This document shows positions 4,802 to 20,124 of a DNA stretch of 64,000 nt, piece by piece; positions within the stretch are counted from its first letter, which is position 1; every line of letters begins with the position of its first letter. Origin of the DNA: Methanofollis formosanus. Lineage in GTDB: Archaea; Halobacteriota; Methanomicrobia; Methanomicrobiales; Methanofollaceae. The notes below the pieces were generated by a model that had not been told where the DNA came from, made no database searches, and saw nothing but the letters and a program-made list of their open reading frames with translations. The stretch is from the NCBI RefSeq assembly GCF_019633745.1, contig NZ_CP037968.1:936789-1000788 (forward strand). Direction: 5' to 3'. A program made the translations under genes and the position numbers.

Positions 4802-5796
4802 AAAAACACCTCCCTGCTGATCCTGGCCAGCAGGGCATTGATCTGGACGTATTCGTTCCCACCCCTCAGGATCCCGAGTTCTGCATCGGCCAGGGCGACC
4901 GCGGTCCGCGGGTCGGCATAGGCCCGGTCGGCCGCCCGCGCCAGTTCCCTGATCACCTCGTGGCCGGTCAGCCCGTAATCGATGAGCATCGACTCGGCCC
5001 GCTGCCGTGCGCCCTGAATATCCTTCTTTGCCAGGGCCTCGAAGATCGAGGTGGCCATTGTTTCGGTCTCCGACGTTGCCGTCGCCGCAAGGTCGACCTC
5101 TCCCCCGGACCCGGCATAGAGTTGAAGGAGGAGGATCGCCCGGCGGAGGTCGCCGCCTGCCGCCGGGACGATGAGGTCGAGGTCGGCCGGCCCGACCTGG
5201 TCGGCGCCGACGCCCTCGGCCGCCATCACCTCCTCGAGCCTCCGTCTCACCACCCGGTCAGGGAGGGGGACGAAGGTGAGCGGGAGACAGCGCGAGGCGA
5301 TCGCCGGGATGATCGCACTCTGGTTGGAAGTGAGGAAGACGAACCGGCACGTCCGCGAGTAGCGCTCCATCGTCCGGCGGAGCGCCTGCTGCGCATCGCG
5401 GGTGAGGGCGCCGGCGCCCTCGAAGACCAGGAGCCTGAACTCGGCGTCCAGCGGACGGATCGAGGCGTACCACCGCACCACGTTCTTGAAGTTCGAGATG
5501 ACACTCTCGTCTTTCCGGTAGATATGCGCAAACCGTTCCTCGGCCTCGAAATACTTCTTCCCCCCCTCGAAGAGGTCGGCCGTCGGGAGGACGGTGGTAT
5601 TCTCCTGCCAGTGCGTGCCGTACAGCGCCCGCGCCAGCGCCTCGACGGCCACGCTCTTGCCGGTGCCCGGGGCGCCGACGACCAGGAGGTGCGGGACGTT
5701 CTTGCTCGCGGCAAAGGAGGAGAGGACCCGCACCACCTCGTCCTGCCCCAGGATCTCCGAAAACTCGGTCGGCCGGTACTTCTCACTCCAGAGCAT
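4798..5796 (-). CDS. Replication factor C small subunit paralog with degenerate Walker B
   Basis: 332 residues from ATG 5796 (MLWSEKYRPTEF, the standard RFC start); the longer frame to 5889 is out-of-frame overlap with the gene before. The AAA+ clamp-loader core is clear: RFC box, Walker A GAPGTGKS at 41-48, DAQQALRRTMERYSR, sensor 1 LTSNQS and the SRC arginine motif IASRC. The Walker B box, normally DEAD, reads LLVFEGAGAL, so both acidic residues that activate water are altered and ATP hydrolysis is probably weak or absent. Some methanogens and halophiles carry two RFC small subunits, and this looks like the divergent second one. Its placement beside CoA genes is unusual. Confidence 0.85.
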   Translation of the reverse strand: MLWSEKYRPTEFSEILGQDEVVRVLSSFAASKNVPHLLVVGAPGTGKSVAVEALARALYGTHWQENTTVLPTADLFEGGKKYFEAEERFAHIYRKDESVISNFKNVVRWYASIRPLDAEFRLLVFEGAGALTRDAQQALRRTMERYSRTCRFVFLTSNQSAIIPAIASRCLPLTFVPLPDRVVRRRLEEVMAAEGVGADQVGPADLDLIVPAAGGDLRRAILLLQLYAGSGGEVDLAATATSETETMATSIFEALAKKDIQGARQRAESMLIDYGLTGHEVIRELARAADRAYADPRTAVALADAELGILRGGNEYVQINALLARISREVFF

Positions 5797-12167: not shown

Positions 12168-12743
12168 CTACACCCAGGTGACCCGTCCCGGCGACGCCCA
12201 GGCGACCGAGAAGCCCGGGGCCGCCGCAAGCAGGGCCAGGAGGAGGAGTGGGAGACCGAAGACCAGCACCAGTGCCAGCACCGCCCTCGCCTTCGAAAGG
12301 TCCTGGAGTTCCTGCAGCCCGAGATAGAGCAGAAGAACAGACCAGAGGAACCCGACAAGGGCGACGCCGGGAATCCACCCCAGGAGCGCCGTCGGCGTCA
12401 GTCCGACGACGGCCACCCTGCAGGTGGTGCCGACGCCGTTGCGTCCGCCGAGTCCATAGACGAAGAGATGGAGCCAGAAAATACCGATACAGACGGTCAG
12501 GACCGATGCGATCGCCATCGGGAGCATGAGTTCGGGGGTGAGCCCGCTCACTGCGGCAAGGACGGTCATGATGAGGTTGAAGAGGACGATCACGAGGCCG
12601 TACGCCAGGACCGTCCCTGCACGCTCCTGCCGGATCTGCTGGAAGATCCCGGTGGGATGAACGAGGGCTCGAACGATCAGACGAGGATATTTTTGCAGAG
12701 CATTCTTCAGGTGCATGAGTTTCTCTCCATACGATGAGGTCAC
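12168..12743 (-). CDS. YIP1-family membrane protein
   Basis: 191 residues with about five hydrophobic helices, starting near residues 45-65. The N-terminal HLKNALQKYPRLIVRALVHPTGIFQQIRQER is the cytosolic lead typical of archaeal YIP1/DUF1282 proteins, followed by YGLVIVLFNLIMTVLAAVSG and a GLGGRNG turn. Function in archaea is unknown. The start at 12743 overlaps the lipoprotein stop by 4 bases (ATGA), and the internal ATG at 12716 is an alternative. It is last in the envelope-gene run. Confidence 0.75.
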   Translation of the reverse strand: MTSSYGEKLMHLKNALQKYPRLIVRALVHPTGIFQQIRQERAGTVLAYGLVIVLFNLIMTVLAAVSGLTPELMLPMAIASVLTVCIGIFWLHLFVYGLGGRNGVGTTCRVAVVGLTPTALLGWIPGVALVGFLWSVLLLYLGLQELQDLSKARAVLALVLVFGLPLLLLALLAAAPGFSVAWASPGRVTWV

Positions 12744-13861
12744 GTCCTCCCCTCCAGGGGGCCGACCGAGGTGGCGATCCGCACCATCACCTCTCTCCGC
12801 TCCGGCCCCCCAAGCCGGTAAGCCGTCGTGCCGTCCGACCAGACGAAGATGGCGGCACCGTCTTCCCTGAAATACCGGGCCTCCACCCCGTCGACCATCA
12901 CCTCTTCGGCGTCTTCGGGGACGGGCGGGACCGGGAGGTCGGCAGGCCGGACCGTGAGCCTGATCTGGTCGGCGTCGTCCTCCCGCGCATAGATCACGGT
13001 GGTGGAGAGAGCAGGGATGTGATGGGCCTCGACGAACGCGTACCCCTCAGGGATCCAGGACGGCGCCGGGATGCCGGGGCCTGCGAATGTCTCCAGTTCG
13101 TCAAGGCTCTCCACCAAGATCGGGGTGAGAGCAAAGGTCCGTGCCAGGGTGACGTTCGTCCCGGGCGGCGGTTCGAAGACGAAGGTCTCCGCAGGGAATG
13201 CCGGGTCCAGATCGACCTCCGCATACTGCGCGGCGATCACCTCGCGCCCCCCTCCATCCAGGAGAGACGCCTCGACCAGGGTCCAGGCCCCGGCATCGAT
13301 CACCGCCCGCACGCCATAGACCTCGTCGCGCCCGCCGATCGGCGCCGTCCCGATCGGACCGTCGCCTCTTACCTCCACCTCATAGACCGGACGGCCATCG
13401 CACTTCCCCTCTGCAACGGAGGAGAGAGGGCCCTCCACGACGGCGGCCACCGCCGCCTGGTACACCTCCCGTCCGGTCTGCGCCTGCCTGACGGTGTCGG
13501 CGAAGAGAGAGCTGGCATATGCTGCCGGGATCACCGCGGCGTTGCCCGCGGTCGGGTCATAGATCCAGACCCTCCTGCCGTCGTTGACGACGAGGGTCCC
13601 GGCGTACTCGCCTTCGAGATACTCGAAACGGTAGCGCTCCCCGTCTTCAGAAGAGATCCTGGCCGTGGTGTTCCAGTCCTGGGCGGCCAGATCAACAAGG
13701 GCCGAGAAGCCGGCGGTCCCGTCATGAACCCGGGCGACCTGCGTCTGCACCTCCGCTGCAGAGGGGGCGTTGCACCCGGCGGCAAGCACCGCGGCGACGA
13801 GTAGGACGATGAACATCGCCTGCCAGGGAATCACTTTCCTTACCGGTTCTCCGGTAGGCAT
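12740..13861 (-). CDS. Secreted lipoprotein with LolA/DUF4367-like domain
   Basis: 373 residues from ATG 13861. Basic N-terminus VRKVIPWQ, a hydrophobic core MFIVLLVAAVLAAGC with a lipobox LAAGC, then a mature part starting NAPSAAEVQ. The next about 220 residues have the LolA/LolB-like open-barrel pattern (helix, then strands such as YRFEYLEGEYAGTLVVNDGRRVWIYDP). The last about 120 (PSWIPEGYAFVEAHHI, VWSDGTTAYRLGG) match a DUF4367-like domain. It is probably anchored outside the cell membrane. Binding partner unknown. The frame is open far upstream to 14224, but that part is not protein-like. Confidence 0.75.
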   Translation of the reverse strand: MPTGEPVRKVIPWQAMFIVLLVAAVLAAGCNAPSAAEVQTQVARVHDGTAGFSALVDLAAQDWNTTARISSEDGERYRFEYLEGEYAGTLVVNDGRRVWIYDPTAGNAAVIPAAYASSLFADTVRQAQTGREVYQAAVAAVVEGPLSSVAEGKCDGRPVYEVEVRGDGPIGTAPIGGRDEVYGVRAVIDAGAWTLVEASLLDGGGREVIAAQYAEVDLDPAFPAETFVFEPPPGTNVTLARTFALTPILVESLDELETFAGPGIPAPSWIPEGYAFVEAHHIPALSTTVIYAREDDADQIRLTVRPADLPVPPVPEDAEEVMVDGVEARYFREDGAAIFVWSDGTTAYRLGGPERREVMVRIATSVGPLEGRT

Positions 13862-14365
13862 GGCCCGGTTTCGGGTTTCTCCATCTGTCTGATAACAGGA
13901 ATCTTTTCGGTCCATCTTCCAGTGATTGCAGGGGCTTGGTCCTTTCCGACTGTCCGTCTTCTCCCTCCCTCCGAAGAAAGACCGATGCCGGTTCATGCGG
14001 CAGGGAGCGGCCGGACCATACCTGCCGCAAAGGCCGGGACCGAAAAGGTGCAGGATTAGAGATTCGTCCTGCGGTTCGCCTCCCGGGATGCCGGCCCTCA
14101 AGAGAGATGGGGGGTGCCCCTCCAGGTGGGGCAAAACGCCCTCCTGAAGGGTCAGATGCAGGCACAGGAAGGGAAGTCCGGTGTCATCAGCCCTCGGCCG
14201 GAGACAGGCACCCGGTTCCGGCATCCACGGTTACGAGTATATTTTTCTGGTTATATATTGATTGTGTGCCGATTCTATGCACATCCAGAGGAAGAATGGT
14301 GGGAAGAAGAACATTTTATCGAAGAGAGGGGTCGGCGTCTTCGGGGTTGTGCCTTGCATTTCACT
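13862..14365. other. 500-base gap with a likely minus-strand promoter
   Basis: No protein-like frame. The only notable signal is an AT-rich stretch at 14235-14262 with TATA-like sequences on both strands, part of a motif shared with the 17.0-kb gap. If it serves the lipoprotein gene the leader would be about 370 bases long. Confidence 0.4.
14218..14246 (-). promoter_or_regulatory. TATA plus conserved GTGGATGCC leader motif, copy 1
   Basis: On the minus strand AAAAATATACT is followed seven bases later by GTGGATGCC. The same arrangement and spacing occur at 17023-17051 upstream of another lipoprotein gene on the same strand. Probably an archaeal TATA box with a shared leader or regulator site. 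Confidence 0.5.
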
Positions 14366-14731
14366 TTACCGGGGATAAAGTTTCACCGTGCCTTCTCTCT
14401 CCTCGACGGCATGCTGAGCACCCCTCAACCGCCAGAGCGCCCGGACGCCATAGACGGCGACCGCCCCTGATATCACAACCCAGGGCGTGCAGATGAATAG
14501 CACGAATCTGATATCGAGTGCCATGGGATTGCTGTACCACTGGTCCAGAAATAGAATCGTGATAGAAAGACCCAACCCGAAGACCGGAATACACACAAAG
14601 GAGAGAAGAAACCAGGCATACTCGTTCGGCGATATTTTTTCCTCTCTTTTGCCCGTGAAGGAGGGATAGAAGAACCAGACGGCAAAAAAAACCGTCACAA
14701 TCGGGATCAGATAGATCGATTCAAAGAACAT
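14366..14731 (-). CDS. Three-helix membrane protein, unknown
   Basis: 121 residues: MFFESIYLIPIVTVFFAVWFF (helix 1), a basic loop with TGKREEKISPNEYA, helix 2 WFLLSFVCIPVFGLGLSITILF, a short polar loop with DQWYSNP, helix 3 FVLFICTPWVVISGAVAVYGV, then a basic tail. No family recognised. It lies 39 bases downstream of the secreted protein 14771-15718 and is probably co-transcribed with it and 15722-16246. Confidence 0.6.
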   Translation of the reverse strand: MFFESIYLIPIVTVFFAVWFFYPSFTGKREEKISPNEYAWFLLSFVCIPVFGLGLSITILFLDQWYSNPMALDIRFVLFICTPWVVISGAVAVYGVRALWRLRGAQHAVEEREGTVKLYPR

Positions 14732-14770
14732 GGCCTGCTCCTCCGCCGGGCAGAGACAGAAAAATCGGGA

Positions 14771-15718
14771 TCATTCCATCTCTCCCTCAACCGCCGCCAC
14801 GTACTCCCGGTACGGTTCTTCGGCACCGTCATGATAGGCGATCCCCGAGAAGACCCAGACCGGCGCGACGGTGTTCTGTTCGGAGATCCTCGGTTCCATC
14901 CAGTACCCGACCGAGATCTCCTCGATCGATACCCGGTCGTACCCGCTCATCTCACAGGGGCGAACGGTCTTTCCGGCCTTCAGGTGATCATATGCCTCCT
15001 CTGCGGAGATGACCGGTGTCTCCCCTGCAGCCTCGACCTCACGCCAGCACCTCACCATCCCGACGACATCGCCGCCGTCGCCGATGGTCACCGCCATCTC
15101 GTCGCCGTAGACCGGGACGCCGTCGAGTGTCCTCGCGTACCTGACGGCGAGCGTCACATCGTAGATCTCTTCGGGTTCGCTGCTCCCCGCCTGCCAGACC
15201 TCGTGCCGCTGGTCCACCTCGACGGCGCTCACCTCCGCACCGGCCGGCAGCAGTCCCCGCTCCTCCAGGAAGGCGTCGGCGATCGCTATCGCTTCATCTC
15301 TGGAAGGGAGGGCGGGCGGTTCGGTGACGGCATCGGGGAACATGCGGTCAGGGACTTCATAGAGAACCGCCCCGGAGGCGGGATACATCGAGAGGCGTAC
15401 GGGACCGTCCTTCGAGTCGTCGACCACCCGGATCTCTCCGGTCCTCTGGTTGCACACCTCCGCCTTTCCGGTCATCCCGAACCGTGCCGCGACCTCCTCC
15501 ACCGACTGCGTCGTCACCGTCGGCACATCGGTGCGGTACAGAGGGTACGATGCATTGGTCAACTCCGGAAACGCTGTCGACACCTCGAACGCAGTTCCGG
15601 CACCCTTCAGGTCTGCCGGCAACGGTCCGCCCTCTCCGTCATCCCCGGGGAAGAGTGAGAATATGGCAAGTACGAGGATGAGGGCGAGAACGCCGGCGAT
15701 GAGGATGATCTTTTTCAT
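14771..15718 (-). CDS. Membrane-anchored extracellular protein, PepSY/YycH-like layout, unknown function
   Basis: 315 residues. One N-terminal anchor (MKKIILIAGVLALILVLAIF) is followed by a soluble domain. The repeated pattern PSRDEAIAIADAFLEERGLLP and VISAEEAYDHLKAG, each with acidic helices, resembles PepSY/YycI-type extracytoplasmic domains. No lipobox cysteine is present, so the first helix probably stays as an anchor. It is followed 3 bases later on the coding strand by nothing conserved, and preceded by the multi-pass protein 15722-16246 with a 3-base gap, so the two are likely a pair. Confidence 0.6.
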   Translation of the reverse strand: MKKIILIAGVLALILVLAIFSLFPGDDGEGGPLPADLKGAGTAFEVSTAFPELTNASYPLYRTDVPTVTTQSVEEVAARFGMTGKAEVCNQRTGEIRVVDDSKDGPVRLSMYPASGAVLYEVPDRMFPDAVTEPPALPSRDEAIAIADAFLEERGLLPAGAEVSAVEVDQRHEVWQAGSSEPEEIYDVTLAVRYARTLDGVPVYGDEMAVTIGDGGDVVGMVRCWREVEAAGETPVISAEEAYDHLKAGKTVRPCEMSGYDRVSIEEISVGYWMEPRISEQNTVAPVWVFSGIAYHDGAEEPYREYVAAVEGEME

Positions 15719-15721
15719 GGT

Positions 15722-16246
15722 TCACTCTCCTTCTCCAATCTCTTCTCCCCCTTTCCCGAGATCGATCAGGAAGAGAGGAATACAGAGAGCCGTCGAGATG
15801 AGGAGCATCCTGAGAAACGACTCCAGCATCTCCATCGTGAAATACAGCGGCCCGATCATCCCGAGAGTGCGCTCTATCGCGTCGTAATCAGGGAAGACCT
15901 CGCCGCTCGCAAAGCCGATGAGCATCGCAATGATCTGGGAGAAAAAGGGGATGCAGCAGATGTAGATCCACTTCCACGTCCCCCTCGTCCTGAGAGGGAT
16001 GAGCACGAACGGTGTCATCGTCGCCAGCACCTGCACGGTCAGGATGACAAAGGTCGCCGCCGGCGTTTGCGGCCCCATGGCCTCGAACGGGATGAGAAAC
16101 GGCATGACAAGGGCAAGGAGTCCGGCCAGAGCAGGCGGGGCGATGGAACGGAGGGACGGATGCGGGATCCTCTCGATGCCGGTATAGAGGAGGGCGGGGT
16201 AGAGGAGAAGGAATAAGATGATGAGAGGGACGTCGAACAGCATCAT
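15722..16246 (-). CDS. Multi-pass membrane protein, unknown
   Basis: 174 residues with about five hydrophobic segments: MLFDVPLIILFLLLYPALL, PPALAGLLALVMPFLIP, FVILTVQVLATMTPFVLIPL, WIYICCIPFFSQIIAMLIGF, and MLLISTALCIPLFLIDL near the C-terminus. The acidic tail KGGEEIGEGE is cytosolic if the usual topology holds. No family recognised. First gene of the small unit running to 14366, with a TATA-like sequence TATATACTC on the minus strand about 45 bases upstream (near 16290-16300). Confidence 0.6.
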   Translation of the reverse strand: MMLFDVPLIILFLLLYPALLYTGIERIPHPSLRSIAPPALAGLLALVMPFLIPFEAMGPQTPAATFVILTVQVLATMTPFVLIPLRTRGTWKWIYICCIPFFSQIIAMLIGFASGEVFPDYDAIERTLGMIGPLYFTMEMLESFLRMLLISTALCIPLFLIDLGKGGEEIGEGE

Positions 16247-16440
16247 AAGACTCCAGATATCCGGGATATCTGATTGTCATTATACTATGAATGAGTATAT
16301 ATGATTTCTATGCCGTTTCTCTACAGATCAGAACATCGGGGCGCCACCGGGGGCGGAAGAGGGCGGAGAGGGGATGATCTTTCATCACGCCGTCATCGCG
16401 TATCGCGTCGGGCCGCACTCCCACGACAAGAGTTACGATC

Positions 16441-16917
16441 TCATGCCCCTCTGATCTCGGTCACGGTCGTGACCACCCGCCCTTCCCCCTCGTCGACCAG
16501 GAAGTCGACGCTCGCGGTCTTGTTCGTGATCCTGAGGGCCGGGGCGCACCCTCTCCCAGAAGAGGGGAAGGGTGTCGAGTGACAGGAGAGGAACACTCCT
16601 TCGACCTCCCCTCCACCGAGATACATCTCTCTCGCCGCCCTGTCCCTGAGCGCGACACGAGCGACATGTGAGGCGTTTGTCTCCATCCAGTCGGTACCGC
16701 CCGGAGAGATGACCAGGACGTTTGCGTAATCGAAGTCAGGAAGGTCGGCGGATACGGCGGGGCGGAGGGTGAGCGGTGCCGGGGTTTCCTTAAGGGCCGG
16801 CATCTCTGTCTGCGGGACCGGCGTCGTCTCGAGCGTCGTGTTGTCGACCGGAGTCGTGCACCCGGCCACAGATGCCATGACGCCGACGATCAGAAGAGCA
16901 CACCATATTTCTCTCAT
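16441..16917 (-). CDS. Small lipoprotein, unknown function
   Basis: 158 residues: signal peptide MREIWCALLIVGVMASVAGC with lipobox SVAGC, a Thr/Pro-rich linker (residues 21-50), then a compact domain with PDFDYANVLVISPGG and ITNKTASVDFLVDEGEGRVV. The Thr-rich linker is typical of glycosylated archaeal surface lipoproteins. It has its own promoter region (TATA at 17041-17051) sharing a leader motif with the lipoprotein gene at 13861. No known domain recognised. Confidence 0.65.
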   Translation of the reverse strand: MREIWCALLIVGVMASVAGCTTPVDNTTLETTPVPQTEMPALKETPAPLTLRPAVSADLPDFDYANVLVISPGGTDWMETNASHVARVALRDRAAREMYLGGGEVEGVFLSCHSTPFPSSGRGCAPALRITNKTASVDFLVDEGEGRVVTTVTEIRGA

Positions 16918-17101: not shown

Positions 17102-17129
17102 AGAGGATCAGCTCACAAAGTTTAAGATT
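17102..17129 (+). promoter_or_regulatory. Shared promoter/operator motif, copy 1
   Basis: AGAGGATCA followed by CACAAA and TTTAAG matches 19091-19118 at 23 of 28 positions by direct comparison. Each copy precedes a cassette ending in a membrane-anchored double winged-helix regulator, so it may be a TATA element plus a site bound by these regulators. Confidence 0.5.
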
Positions 17130-17159: not shown

Positions 17160-17642
17160 ATGCAGCCTGAAAAAACTATTCTGATTCTTATCATCGCCGC
17201 AGCACTGCTTGTGCCTGCTGCGGCCGCCCACGACCTGAGGGCGGAGACCGCCGACCAGATCACCGTCTCATCCATCCCGGACGGGCTGATCGATCTGGAC
17301 AAATTCAAAATTGGCATTCGTTCGGTCGGTGGTACCATCTATCCAAGCGAGTGGGATCTCATCAACAAGTACATCCCCTCTAATGTCGAGACCATAGAAG
17401 TGTATCTCGACTGGAGCGGGCACAGCGGTGGCCCCTACTCTGTCGCCCTGACCATCTACCCCCCAGGAAACAACGGCCACTTCGGCCCGTATTATGACAG
17501 TGCCGATGGAAGGAGCGATGAAAAGATCACCCTGTCCTTCTCGGACTCGTCCGGCCTCCCGAGCGGCACCTGGCAGTTCTATGTCTTTGGTGACGACGTG
17601 CCGGCCAGTGGGATCTCGTACACCCTGAATGTCGTATACTAA
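17160..17642 (+). CDS. Secreted protein, unknown function
   Basis: 160 residues. A signal peptide MQPEKTILILIIAAALLVPAAAAH is probably cleaved after AAA. The mature part is beta-rich and acidic, with VETIEVYLDWSGHSGGPYSVALTIYPPG and a late WQFYVFGDD strand, which resembles a jelly-roll or pre-peptidase C-terminal-like extracellular domain. I recognise no family firmly. It lies 22 bases upstream of the membrane-anchored regulator at 17665 and is probably co-transcribed, so it could be the sensed or regulated surface partner. Confidence 0.65.
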   Translation: MQPEKTILILIIAAALLVPAAAAHDLRAETADQITVSSIPDGLIDLDKFKIGIRSVGGTIYPSEWDLINKYIPSNVETIEVYLDWSGHSGGPYSVALTIYPPGNNGHFGPYYDSADGRSDEKITLSFSDSSGLPSGTWQFYVFGDDVPASGISYTLNVVY

Positions 17643-17664: not shown

Positions 17665-18453
17665 ATGCAACCAAAATTCGTTCTTTTTTTGATATTCACA
17701 CTTCTTCTCTTCAGTCCGGGGTATCAGGCAACGGCAAAGATCGTCGTCGAGCCCATACCTGCGGAGATTCACCCAGACAGGATCAGTCTTGACGACGAAG
17801 AGATTGTGCCGATCTGGCACTCCTCCCCCATGCGATTACTCACATGCTTCCTCCTCATCTATTGCCCCCTCCTCGCCTGCCCGGTCGAACTCTTCTACTC
17901 GCTCGGCATCTGGACCTACCTCGGCTACCGTCGCGCCTCGCGTCAACGCCCCTTCGACAACCCAAACCGGTGGCAGATCTTCACATGCATCAGGGAAAAC
18001 CCAGGCATCTCCGTAGCCGAGGTCGTCGCCGCCACCGGGGTCAGCCGCGGCACGGTGCATTACCATCTCGCCCATCTGCAAAAGAGGAACATTATCCACA
18101 AAAACATCGAGGGAAATTCTATCGGCTACTTCGCATATACCAACGACTTCGACGTCACCGAAGAGCACATCCTCATGCACCTCAAAAACAAGACCAAAAA
18201 GAGTCTCCTCTCTCTTCTGCTGGAGACACCAGGACTCTCCCAGTCTGAGGTCGCCGAGGCGATCGAAGTATCGAGGCCGACGGTCTGCTGGCATATGGAG
18301 CGACTCATCAAAGACGGGGTGGTTGAGTCAAAGAAAATAGAGGGGAGGGTGCGGTACCGGCTCACCCACGATGCCTGGGAGATGCTTGAGAAGGAGAGGA
18401 GGAGTGGGGGGACCAAAGACGATACTACAGATTCCAGGCCGGCGGCGGCCTGA
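17665..18453 (+). CDS. Membrane-anchored transcription regulator with two winged-helix domains (paralog A)
   Basis: 262 residues from ATG 17665, with GGAG about 10 bases upstream. A signal-like helix (2-24), a short extracytoplasmic part of about 35 residues (KIVVEPIPAEIHPD, IVPIWHSSP), a second helix near 62-84, then YRRASRQRPFDNPNRWQI. The cytosolic part holds two winged-helix domains: PGISVAEVVAATGVSRGTVHYHL, then PGLSQSEVAEAIEVSRPTVCWHM. Similar membrane-tethered winged-helix proteins are common in methanogens, with unknown signals. A paralog with the same layout is 0.7 kb downstream. Confidence 0.8.
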   Translation: MQPKFVLFLIFTLLLFSPGYQATAKIVVEPIPAEIHPDRISLDDEEIVPIWHSSPMRLLTCFLLIYCPLLACPVELFYSLGIWTYLGYRRASRQRPFDNPNRWQIFTCIRENPGISVAEVVAATGVSRGTVHYHLAHLQKRNIIHKNIEGNSIGYFAYTNDFDVTEEHILMHLKNKTKKSLLSLLLETPGLSQSEVAEAIEVSRPTVCWHMERLIKDGVVESKKIEGRVRYRLTHDAWEMLEKERRSGGTKDDTTDSRPAAA

Positions 18454-18720
18454 AGAAAATACTCGGAATGATCTCCAGAAATGATATCGGGTGTGAAAAT
18501 ATATCTGAGAATGAAAACGCTATTCTGGTTTTGTCGGTTCATTCAATGTTCAGGAACCACCATACGTTCTATCGCCGATCATCCCTGTCGAAGAGGAGTC
18601 TGCCGTCTTCTTTAATTTCAAGCCATGAACCCCGCCCCTTGATTCCAGGATGAAGATTAGAGCCTGAAGGCAGAAAGAAATATGGTGAAATAACGGCTCT
18701 GTAGAAATCTTCTTGATAGT

Positions 18721-18885
18721 TCTCTTCGCCGGGGGACTGGCTGCCCCCCCGGCGCGATTGATGTGGAAGGCGTGGTGATCAGGCGTGCCGCCCTCATCGT
18801 AAAATCTTCCCTGTAATCTCGTGCCGGGGGGAGACCCCCGGACCCCATGACGAAGATAGGGGCGGGGCGGCAATGAAGTGGCAGT
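18721..18885. repeat. GC-rich hairpin module (inverted)
   Basis: Contains GCCGGGGGACTGGCTGCCCC near 18729, CAGGCGTGCCGCCCTCATCG near 18781, then GTGCCGGGGGGAGACCCCCG and ACGAAGATAGGGGCGGGGCG. Same module as at 36.9, 46.0 and 63.5 kb, in the opposite orientation. Confidence 0.6.
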
Positions 18886-18932
18886 CCCATCTGGTGTCCT
18901 GCTCTGAAGAGGGAGCAAGGATCCGCACCGGA

Positions 18933-18997
18933 GACCAACGAGAATTTTCATCGCGTATGCTTGAACCCAGGATTCATGCTCAATTCTACAGGGCCAT
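18933..18997 (-). repeat. Short palindrome element, copy 4 (inverted)
   Basis: CATCGCGTATGCTTGAACCC, then GGATTCATGCTCAATTCTAC, then AGGGCC. The core TGAACCCAGGATTCA has one non-Watson-Crick position. Flanks match the other copies in reverse. Confidence 0.7.
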
Positions 18998-19090
18998 TCG
19001 GTGAAACACCAGCCTCCTAACACTCACACCAGATATTTTCCAAACCCCATATTTTTCATAGGCGACCTATATGACAATCAAAGAGCATGG

Positions 19091-19118
19091 AGAGGATCAA
19101 CACACAAAATTTAAGGAT
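19091..19118 (+). promoter_or_regulatory. Shared promoter/operator motif, copy 2
   Basis: AGAGGATCA, CACAAA and TTTAAG as at 17102-17129. It lies 79 bases before the second double winged-helix regulator gene. The similarity continues weakly downstream (AATTCACAGTATGCCGA against GATTCAGGATATGGCGA), so the promoter region was duplicated with the gene. Confidence 0.5.
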
Positions 19119-19196
19119 CAATATATCAATTCACAGTATGCCGACAGTATCCAGACCCCTTCCCGCCCCCGGCCCCGAAGATCATGAGTTGAAATT

Positions 19197-19982
19197 ATGC
19201 ATCAAAACCCCGCCGCCATATCTGTCCTCATCATGACCCTGCTCCTCCTCTGGAGCCCGGCGGCGGCGAAGATCGTCGTCGAACCCGCACCCGCGGAACT
19301 GCCCGCCAATGTAACTTTCATCGACGACGAGGAGTTCGTGCCGATCTGGACTGTTTCGCCGATGCGGCTGCTCACCTACTATACCCTCATCCACTGCCCC
19401 GCCCTCGCCGTGCCGGTCTGCCTCCTCTATTCATCCGGCATCCTGGCATTCCTCGGCTACCGGCGTGCCTCGCGCCAACGTCCCTCCGACAACCCGAGCC
19501 GCCTACAGATATGTGCGTGCATCAAAGAGAACCCGGGCATCACCGTGCCCGAGATCGCCGATGCAACCGATTTCAGCCGCGGCACGGTGAACTATCACCT
19601 CTTCCGTCTGCAAAGGAAGGGCCTTGTTCACAGAAAGGGGCAGGGAAATACCTTCGGTTATTTTGCATACTCCGACAGCCTCGACGCCACAGAAGAGCAC
19701 CTCCTCATGCACCTCAAAAACCAGACCAAAAAAAGTCTGATCTCTCTTCTGATTGAGGCACCGTGTGTCTCCCAGTCTGAGGCCGCCGAGGCGATCGAGG
19801 TATCGAGACCGACGATCGCCTGGCATATGGAGCGACTCATCAGAGACGGGCTCGTCGAGTACAGGAGAGACGGACGGACGGTGCGCTACCGTCTCACCGA
19901 TGAAGCCGGGGAAGTGCTCGGGAAGATAAGGAAAGGAAGAACAGAAGAGGGTCTGATGGATAAAGGGCCTGCAACGGCCTGA
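19197..19982 (+). CDS. Membrane-anchored transcription regulator with two winged-helix domains (paralog B)
   Basis: 261 residues, collinear with the protein at 17665. An N-terminal signal-like helix is followed by the same extracytoplasmic motif KIVVEPAPAELP and VPIWTVSPMRLLTYY, a second helix (CPALAVPVCLLYSSGILAFL), and YRRASRQRPSDNPSRLQI. Two winged-helix domains follow: PGITVPEIADATDFSRGTVNYHL and VSQSEAAEAIEVSRPTIAWHM. Recognition helices differ mainly in the first domain (TGVSRGTVHYH against TDFSRGTVNYH), so the two probably bind related sites. Unlike copy A it has no secreted-protein gene before it. Confidence 0.8.
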   Translation: MHQNPAAISVLIMTLLLLWSPAAAKIVVEPAPAELPANVTFIDDEEFVPIWTVSPMRLLTYYTLIHCPALAVPVCLLYSSGILAFLGYRRASRQRPSDNPSRLQICACIKENPGITVPEIADATDFSRGTVNYHLFRLQRKGLVHRKGQGNTFGYFAYSDSLDATEEHLLMHLKNQTKKSLISLLIEAPCVSQSEAAEAIEVSRPTIAWHMERLIRDGLVEYRRDGRTVRYRLTDEAGEVLGKIRKGRTEEGLMDKGPATA

Positions 19983-19993
19983 ATAGAGGCGAG

Positions 19994-20124
19994 CGGCCCC
20001 GGAACCCCCCACGACGAAGATAGGGGCGGGGCGGCACCAATCTCTCGAACGACACCGTGCTTCAGAAACGTCTTCCACTCACCTATCAAGCCCTGAGAAG
20101 TTTTGGGATGACCTCGATGAAATT
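19994..20124 (-). repeat. Truncated inverted copy of the 340-base composite element
   Basis: On the minus strand GAGGTCATCCCAAAACTTCT, GCTTGATAGGTGAG, TTTCTGAAGCACGGTGTCGT and CGCCCCTATCTTCGTCGTGG match the first about 125 bases of the element at 31089, then stop at the regulator gene end. Confidence 0.7.

Follow-up and report, generated by a model that had tools for sequence, protein, structure and literature searches.

Organization of the locus

The window, by which we mean the whole analysed stretch of 64,000 nucleotides from Methanofollis formosanus, carries genes for two paralogous regulators, here called RegA and RegB, and for a secreted protein, SecA, encoded directly upstream of RegA. 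These names, and RegC for a paralogue elsewhere in the genome, are working labels; SecA in this sense is unrelated to the bacterial translocation ATPase SecA. The central features are as follows (numbers for the parts of RegA are residues).

17106-17126, + strand: promoter element GATCAGCTCACAAAGTTTAAG, ahead of secA; probably a half-site for the regulator, at or near the core promoter
17160-17642, + strand: secA, first gene of the predicted operon; predicted signal peptide and a probable beta-sandwich of the PPC fold (pre-peptidase C-terminal, similar to collagen-binding domains)
17665-18453, + strand: regA, second gene of the predicted secA-regA operon (from reading frame, homologue alignment and model)
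RegA, membrane part: signal-type helix 1; loop, about 25-57, with KIVVEPIPAE and W51; transmembrane helix 2, about 58-88
RegA, DNA-binding part: winged helix 1, about 98-157; winged helix 2, about 170-235
19095-19115, + strand: promoter element GATCAACACACAAAATTTAAG upstream of regB, the same element as at secA
19197-19982, + strand: regB, for a RegA paralogue built in the same way; KIVVEPAPAE, and a tryptophan before helix 2

The secA and regA frames are separated by 22 bp, a spacing from which we infer that they form an operon, and regB has no secreted partner gene of its own directly upstream. Translation of regA probably does not begin at the in-frame ATG farther upstream, at 17629, since homologues align from 17665. 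RegA and RegB are 60% identical over 262 residues, and each contains two HTH_24-type winged-helix domains (E-values of 1.4e-23 for RegA and 7.7e-23 for RegB, above the Pfam cut-off). Together with the reading frames and an alignment of 31 family members, these data bear out the original prediction of two paralogous regulators, each with a signal helix, a membrane helix and two winged helices, and the loop motif KIVVEP.PAE that it described as shared was found in both proteins.

Predicted topology and fold of the regulators

Hydropathy, charge pattern and helix prediction were evaluated over the 31-member family alignment. All members except one show the same succession of a neutral or positive charge, a hydrophobic helix, an acidic loop, a second hydrophobic helix and a neutral-to-basic stretch (30/31); the exception, locus L007, has a shortened loop. 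An AxA-like cleavage site follows helix 1 in most of the aligned sequences, the loop spans 26-52 residues with charges from -1 to -7 (net about -5; about 33 residues in RegA), and R89, after the transmembrane helix, is nearly invariant. From the helix order and the charge asymmetry of the family, the N-terminal segment is predicted to lie outside the cell and the DNA-binding part inside. In an AlphaFold2 model of RegA, residues 3-16 and 73-92 are helical and there are two winged-helix units; pLDDT is about 90-97 over residues 101-240 and lower in the membrane part.

A fold search with this model matched SmtB/ArsR-type and tandem winged-helix proteins, and the PHROGs matches were generic HTH. 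The NCBIfam subfamily NF033788 (ArsR/SmtB) gave 64.5 and 74.4 bits against a cut-off of 55, scores that sum two domains, and the assignment of RegA and RegB as ArsR/SmtB metalloregulators would appear to hold at the level of the name only. If the hydrophobic N-terminus were no membrane anchor in vivo, the proteins would be cytoplasmic ArsR/MarR-like regulators of the ordinary kind, set apart by their leader, as might be suggested by their closest annotated relative, MM2441, which PMC3510493 describes just as an ArsR-family regulator. We regard this as very improbable, given the two hydrophobic segments, the near-uniform charge asymmetry and the cleavage-like motifs described above. It is also difficult to reconcile with the regulator at 87.5 kb of the same genome (L005), in which a large LolA/DUF4367-like, lipoprotein-related domain of roughly 200 residues replaces the loop, exactly at the predicted extracytoplasmic position. 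The same replacement is found in its orthologue (L059, genome G021), and the two inserted domains match the lipoprotein encoded at 12740-13879 in the window with E-values of 1e-9 and 2e-11.

The original reading of the pair as membrane-tethered regulators that carry surface information to genes is thus upheld at the sequence level by the topology statistics, the predicted fold, the loop signature and the palindromic putative operators described below. It did, however, overlook the predicted secreted PPC-type partner encoded upstream of RegA, and it took the architecture to be unusual, whereas transmembrane transcription regulators (TTRs) are widespread and enriched in Methanomicrobia according to Demey et al. 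(2023; PMC10269533). Like TTRs, which that census defines by their domains only, RegA and RegB appear to unite a DNA-binding domain and a transmembrane region in one protein; with predicted DNA-binding domains and at least one predicted transmembrane region each, they would fall within the definition. The N-out/C-in layout with tandem winged helices, the secreted PPC partner and the operators were not found described in the passages of that source that were consulted.

Distribution of the regulator family

The genome of 2.97 Mb, a single contig, encodes seven regulators of the family. A comparison across methanogens, which the original prediction had proposed as a check, gave family matches in 128 of 150 genomes of the order at E-values of 1e-5 or better, often several per genome. 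At 1e-10, matches were obtained in 149 of 295 genomes of the phylum, some of the distant ones spanning the winged-helix part only. The nearest named relative found was the Methanofollis MAG STE_20, and a literature search on COG3398/arCOG02611 gave no match. Frames of 660-770 aa at some Methanoculleus-type homologues, considered as large fused sensors, contain a normal signal-helix start and are most likely over-extended.

Relatives of about 180 aa that are soluble and have tandem winged helices were also seen in the phylum. Such proteins would be in keeping with RegA being a latent factor stored in the membrane, whose winged-helix part is freed by regulated proteolysis while SecA guards or triggers the cleavage, in the way that TcpH protects TcpP. 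The short loop, the single transmembrane helix and the stretch before winged helix 1 would suit a proteolysis substrate, and bacterial TTR partners that inhibit regulator proteolysis are documented in PMC10269533. On the other hand, no cleavage signature was identified in the regulators, and the conservation of the transmembrane helix and of the basic segment behind it (R89) suggests a role beyond anchoring; we therefore consider release by proteolysis improbable.

In genomes of family f4 (loci L063, L065 and L072), partnerless regulators are divergent from a conserved set of genes for a multi-spanning membrane protein and a single-span protein, and in L065 and L072 the divergent set also includes a lipoprotein related to that at 12740 in the window.

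The secreted partner and its pairing with regulators

The SecA model (pLDDT 78.9) is an all-beta domain. Foldseek searches with it returned the collagen-binding domain of ColG (1nqd/1nqj), C-terminal domains of subtilases and GOLD domains, with TM-scores of up to 0.72 by target. Pfam PPC (PF04151) was matched by 5 of 21 SecA relatives (best E-value 9.7e-8), and SecA itself gave no match; because of the fold matches and the PPC matches of its relatives, SecA is most probably one domain of the PPC type.

In the same genome SecA has a single significant homologue, which is likewise encoded directly upstream of a regulator of the family. An iterative profile over the fetched loci collected 24 distinct SecA relatives, all with E-values below 1e-26, 22 of which lie directly upstream of a regulator. 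The partner profile was then searched against 100 genomes of the order, and the 99 best SecA relatives were compared with the list of regulators. Seventy of them are directly upstream of a listed regulator. The remaining 29 at first seemed unpaired, but 19 of the 20 that were inspected are followed directly, in the same orientation, by a diverged regulator, and for the twentieth one lies about 1.1 kb downstream. With nine of the 99 not inspected, at least 89 of the 99 best relatives are thus immediately upstream of a regulator. Such pairs also occur outside the order, in Methanosarcina-like and other families of the phylum, and the two reading frames often overlap.

This fidelity bears on whether SecA belongs to the sensing apparatus at all. 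RegA might be a plain one-component transmembrane regulator that senses through its loop or the membrane, SecA being a co-regulated surface output. RegB, RegC and many Methanoculleus-type regulators indeed have no adjoining partner gene, and, according to PMC10269533, about 57% of known TTRs are without a recognisable sensor domain and the membrane itself is proposed as a signal. However, in several methanogen families the partner almost never occurs without a regulator directly downstream, and a mere target gene would be expected to be less faithful. We consider the one-component alternative rather unlikely.

Six loci (L018, L056, L058, L061, L123 and L126) have partner/regulator pairs beside ABC-2 permeases and large secreted proteins, the latter with NPCBM_assoc/CARDB-type domains in L018; such sets are a possible second class of targets. 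Near 2.013 Mb of the same genome (L020:3377-6468), some 3 kb away from regulator 2016757, a 411-aa secreted protein with a partner-like domain is encoded beside a protein of 619 aa that weakly matches PGF-CTERM.

A motif shared by partner and regulator

KIVVEP is the local form of a motif, [IY]xVxP, located directly behind the predicted signal-peptide site, with a tryptophan just before helix 2. Among the 31 aligned members, V28 is conserved in 28, P30 in 27 and W51 in 28. The SecA relatives carry [IY]xVxP near their mature N-terminus (DQITVSSIP in the SecA of the window; AGYTVRPS and SGYTVRPS in the pair at L115), and its presence in both the partner and the regulator loop argues against the partner being an output only. 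The I or Y type agrees between regulator and partner in 34 of 34 scored pairs, and true pairs are more alike than shuffled pairs, within the Y class too (P = 0.0006); the motif is short, the pairs share ancestry and were anchored by eye, and pairs without the motif were omitted. In the SecA model the motif segment forms a beta strand (residues 35-38). The partners of several paralogues (L004, L050 and L073) have longer N-termini without the motif. RegB and RegC have kept the I-type motif and may therefore share SecA.

Promoter element and putative operators

The original prediction had pointed to a promoter motif shared by the pair. Such a motif is indeed common to the regions upstream of secA and regB, but it is not directly upstream of RegA. 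Allowing at most two mismatches, the element GATCNNCNCANAAANTTTAAG has five sites in the 2.97 Mb (reversed control, 0): at secA, regB and regC, about 270 bp from the regulator of L007, and upstream of another membrane regulator. Among 12 genomes of the genus, 20 sites with at most one mismatch were found, most of them beside family regulators or partners and two inside unrelated coding frames.

In five sister genomes the element is one arm of an inverted repeat of 19-21 bp, with matches of 16 to 18 out of 19 in G039, G057, G033 and G051 and of 18 out of 21 in G045, and a spacer near 13-15 bp; the repeat is located about 40 bp upstream of the partner start codon. Another palindrome, comparable in geometry, was found at the paralogue locus at 1.80 Mb of the genome and at its orthologue (17/20 and 17/21). 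In the window promoter itself, the search for an intrinsic palindrome gave just the AT-rich TATATTTTT/AAAAATATA repeat and a weak upstream arm (11/19, P about 0.1), so that the palindrome stands out clearly in the sister species alone. Long half-sites fit two winged helices per monomer. Part of the conservation of the element is explained by duplication of the promoter along with the genes, and its CACAAAGTTTAAG part could be core promoter (BRE/TATA) and not a regulator site, as the end of the element resembles an archaeal core promoter. Conservation of the downstream arm alongside decay of the upstream one, together with a recurring A-C mismatch, favours a DNA site over an RNA hairpin, which was also considered, but does not prove it.

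The fifth-site regulator (L080:3869-4564, near 45.0 kb of the genome, - strand) has a perfect copy of the secA/regB element upstream, two hydrophobic segments, a linker and a C-terminal MarR/DUF7343 winged helix; its neighbours include an ABC-2-like permease and, at 5227-5676, a small, all-beta-like secreted protein. The copy at 349453 (L081:3454; see also L081:1897-2187) is an orphan with no clear gene behind it and adjoins a transposase-like fragment and the divergent regulator with the shortened loop, L007. A G+C-rich intergenic repeat, cgaagataggggcggggcggc, flanks regB at 18800-18880 and 19995-20045 in the window; similar stretches appear translated in other Methanofollis loci, and it is perhaps a dispersed repeat.

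Divergent envelope genes as candidate targets

A set of genes on the opposite strand (14366-16917) shares its intergenic region with secA, and a further lipoprotein gene lies nearby.

16441-16917, - strand: small lipoprotein, transcribed away from secA-regA; heads a probable divergent envelope operon with a common operator region; homologues near or divergent from regulators in sister loci L054, L061 and L032
15722-16246, - strand: multi-spanning membrane protein of the divergent operon; conserved in L054
14771-15718, - strand: secreted or anchored protein of the divergent operon with weak FTP/PepSY similarity; conserved in L054
14366-14731, - strand: small membrane protein of the divergent operon; in L061 and L032 its homologue is directly divergent from regulators
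12740-13879, - strand: DUF4367/LolA-like lipoprotein, nearby; related domain fused to the regulator in L005 and L059

G015 has the same arrangement, and in G033 and G051 the outer two of these genes have homologues that are divergent from regulators. The divergent envelope genes are candidate targets of the regulators.

A proposed archaeal co-component system

We propose, with a probability of about 0.6, that SecA and RegA, and probably RegB and RegC too, form an archaeal co-component sensing system with a strand-docked partner and a palindromic operator. RegA would be inserted with its short acidic N-terminal segment outside, one transmembrane helix and the two winged helices inside, and SecA would be exported and fold as a single PPC-type beta-sandwich. 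SecA would dock on the strand at the mature N-terminus of the regulator (KIVVEP; family-wide [IY]xVxP), probably by beta-strand addition or by exchange with the corresponding strand of its own. What SecA senses, be it a ligand, envelope stress or a state of the cell surface, would change the state of a regulator dimer, which would bind or leave a long palindromic operator made up of two half-sites of about 20 bp, one per tandem winged-helix monomer; the double winged-helix part would bind the GATCNNCTCA palindrome. RegA may in this way control its own operon, its paralogues and the neighbouring divergent envelope operon. Sequence and comparison speak for the predicted architecture, the co-conserved gene pair, the operator-like element with its distribution and the shared motif; the physical contact between SecA and the regulator, the regulator dimer, the sign of regulation and the signal are what we infer from these.

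To our knowledge, systems of the co-component type have so far been known from gut bacteria. The bacterial systems consist of a tethered factor and a partner of lipocalin-like fold, and the word archaea is absent from the main text of PMC9214523. As in ToxR/ToxS, VtrA/VtrC and TcpP/TcpH, a tethered factor appears to be co-encoded with an extracytoplasmic beta-rich partner, the frames often overlapping (PMC9214523), but no homology of the SecA-RegA module to these pairs was found. Bacterial factors of the ToxR/VtrA type have an N-terminal HTH, a partner gene downstream and a lipocalin-like partner (PMC9214523), whereas the module described here has two C-terminal winged helices, the partner gene upstream and a predicted PPC/jelly-roll fold. 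Compared with VtrA/VtrC, the module has neighbouring genes in a predicted operon and a predicted extracytoplasmic partner domain; the lipocalin-like partner fold, the N-terminal HTH and the VtrA-like periplasmic fold were not found. ArnR and ArnR1 of Sulfolobus acidocaldarius are likewise archaeal membrane-bound one-component regulators in a paralogous pair, but ArnR combines a single HTH at its N-terminus with HAMP and sensor domains and with two transmembrane segments at its C-terminus (PMC6396743), a domain order opposite to that of RegA. As judged from sequence, the SecA-RegA module is a TTR by the general definition and would work like a co-component system without being homologous to one, and the archaeal variant appears to be new.

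How information from the cell surface is passed to the DNA in archaea is poorly known, and a multi-copy two-gene module that recurs across methanogen families with recognisable putative operators offers a defined and testable system.

Relation to MM2440-MM2441 and sRNA162

In three Methanosarcina-like loci (L120, L121 and L122), Rfam sRNA162 (RF02792) was found just downstream of the regulator, with E-values of 1.1e-36, 7.9e-26 and 5.5e-29. In Methanosarcina mazei, sRNA162 is located between MM2441 and MM2442, and MM2441 starts 37 nt before the MM2440 stop (PMC3510493). In L120, a regulator frame likewise opens at a GTG that precedes the partner stop by 37 nt; this regulator begins MVLKITRLLLRS and carries ATEYIVSPAP and a tryptophan before helix 2. 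This match in synteny and geometry suggests that MM2440-MM2441 is the M. mazei form of the partner-regulator module.

According to PMC3510493, MM2440 is hypothetical, the MM2440-MM2441 operon is a target of sRNA162, and MM2441 is proposed to repress mtmB2C2 and to activate other methyltransferase operons, indirectly from sRNA overexpression; no mention of "transmembrane" or of membrane anchoring was found in the searched main text. The pair appears homologous to SecA-RegA, but the L120 regulator is only 26-27% identical to RegA and RegB, and the M. mazei regulon is therefore not transferable to them. The link would place the module in a genetically workable species and would turn MM2441, so far taken for a common ArsR protein, into one component of a two-part membrane sensor tied to carbon-source switching and a known small RNA. 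A broader version of the proposal, for which we would give somewhat less than even odds, is that of an undescribed, lineage-wide archaeal co-component system which works by strand exchange through the common [IY]xVxP and includes the sRNA162-controlled MM2440-MM2441 pair, with its link to the methanol-to-methylamine switch of M. mazei.

In L120 (3168-3200; genome G266), the third codon of the partner gene is an in-frame TGA (MK*WKILILC). Its relatives are intact, and the L120 gene may be damaged or have another start.
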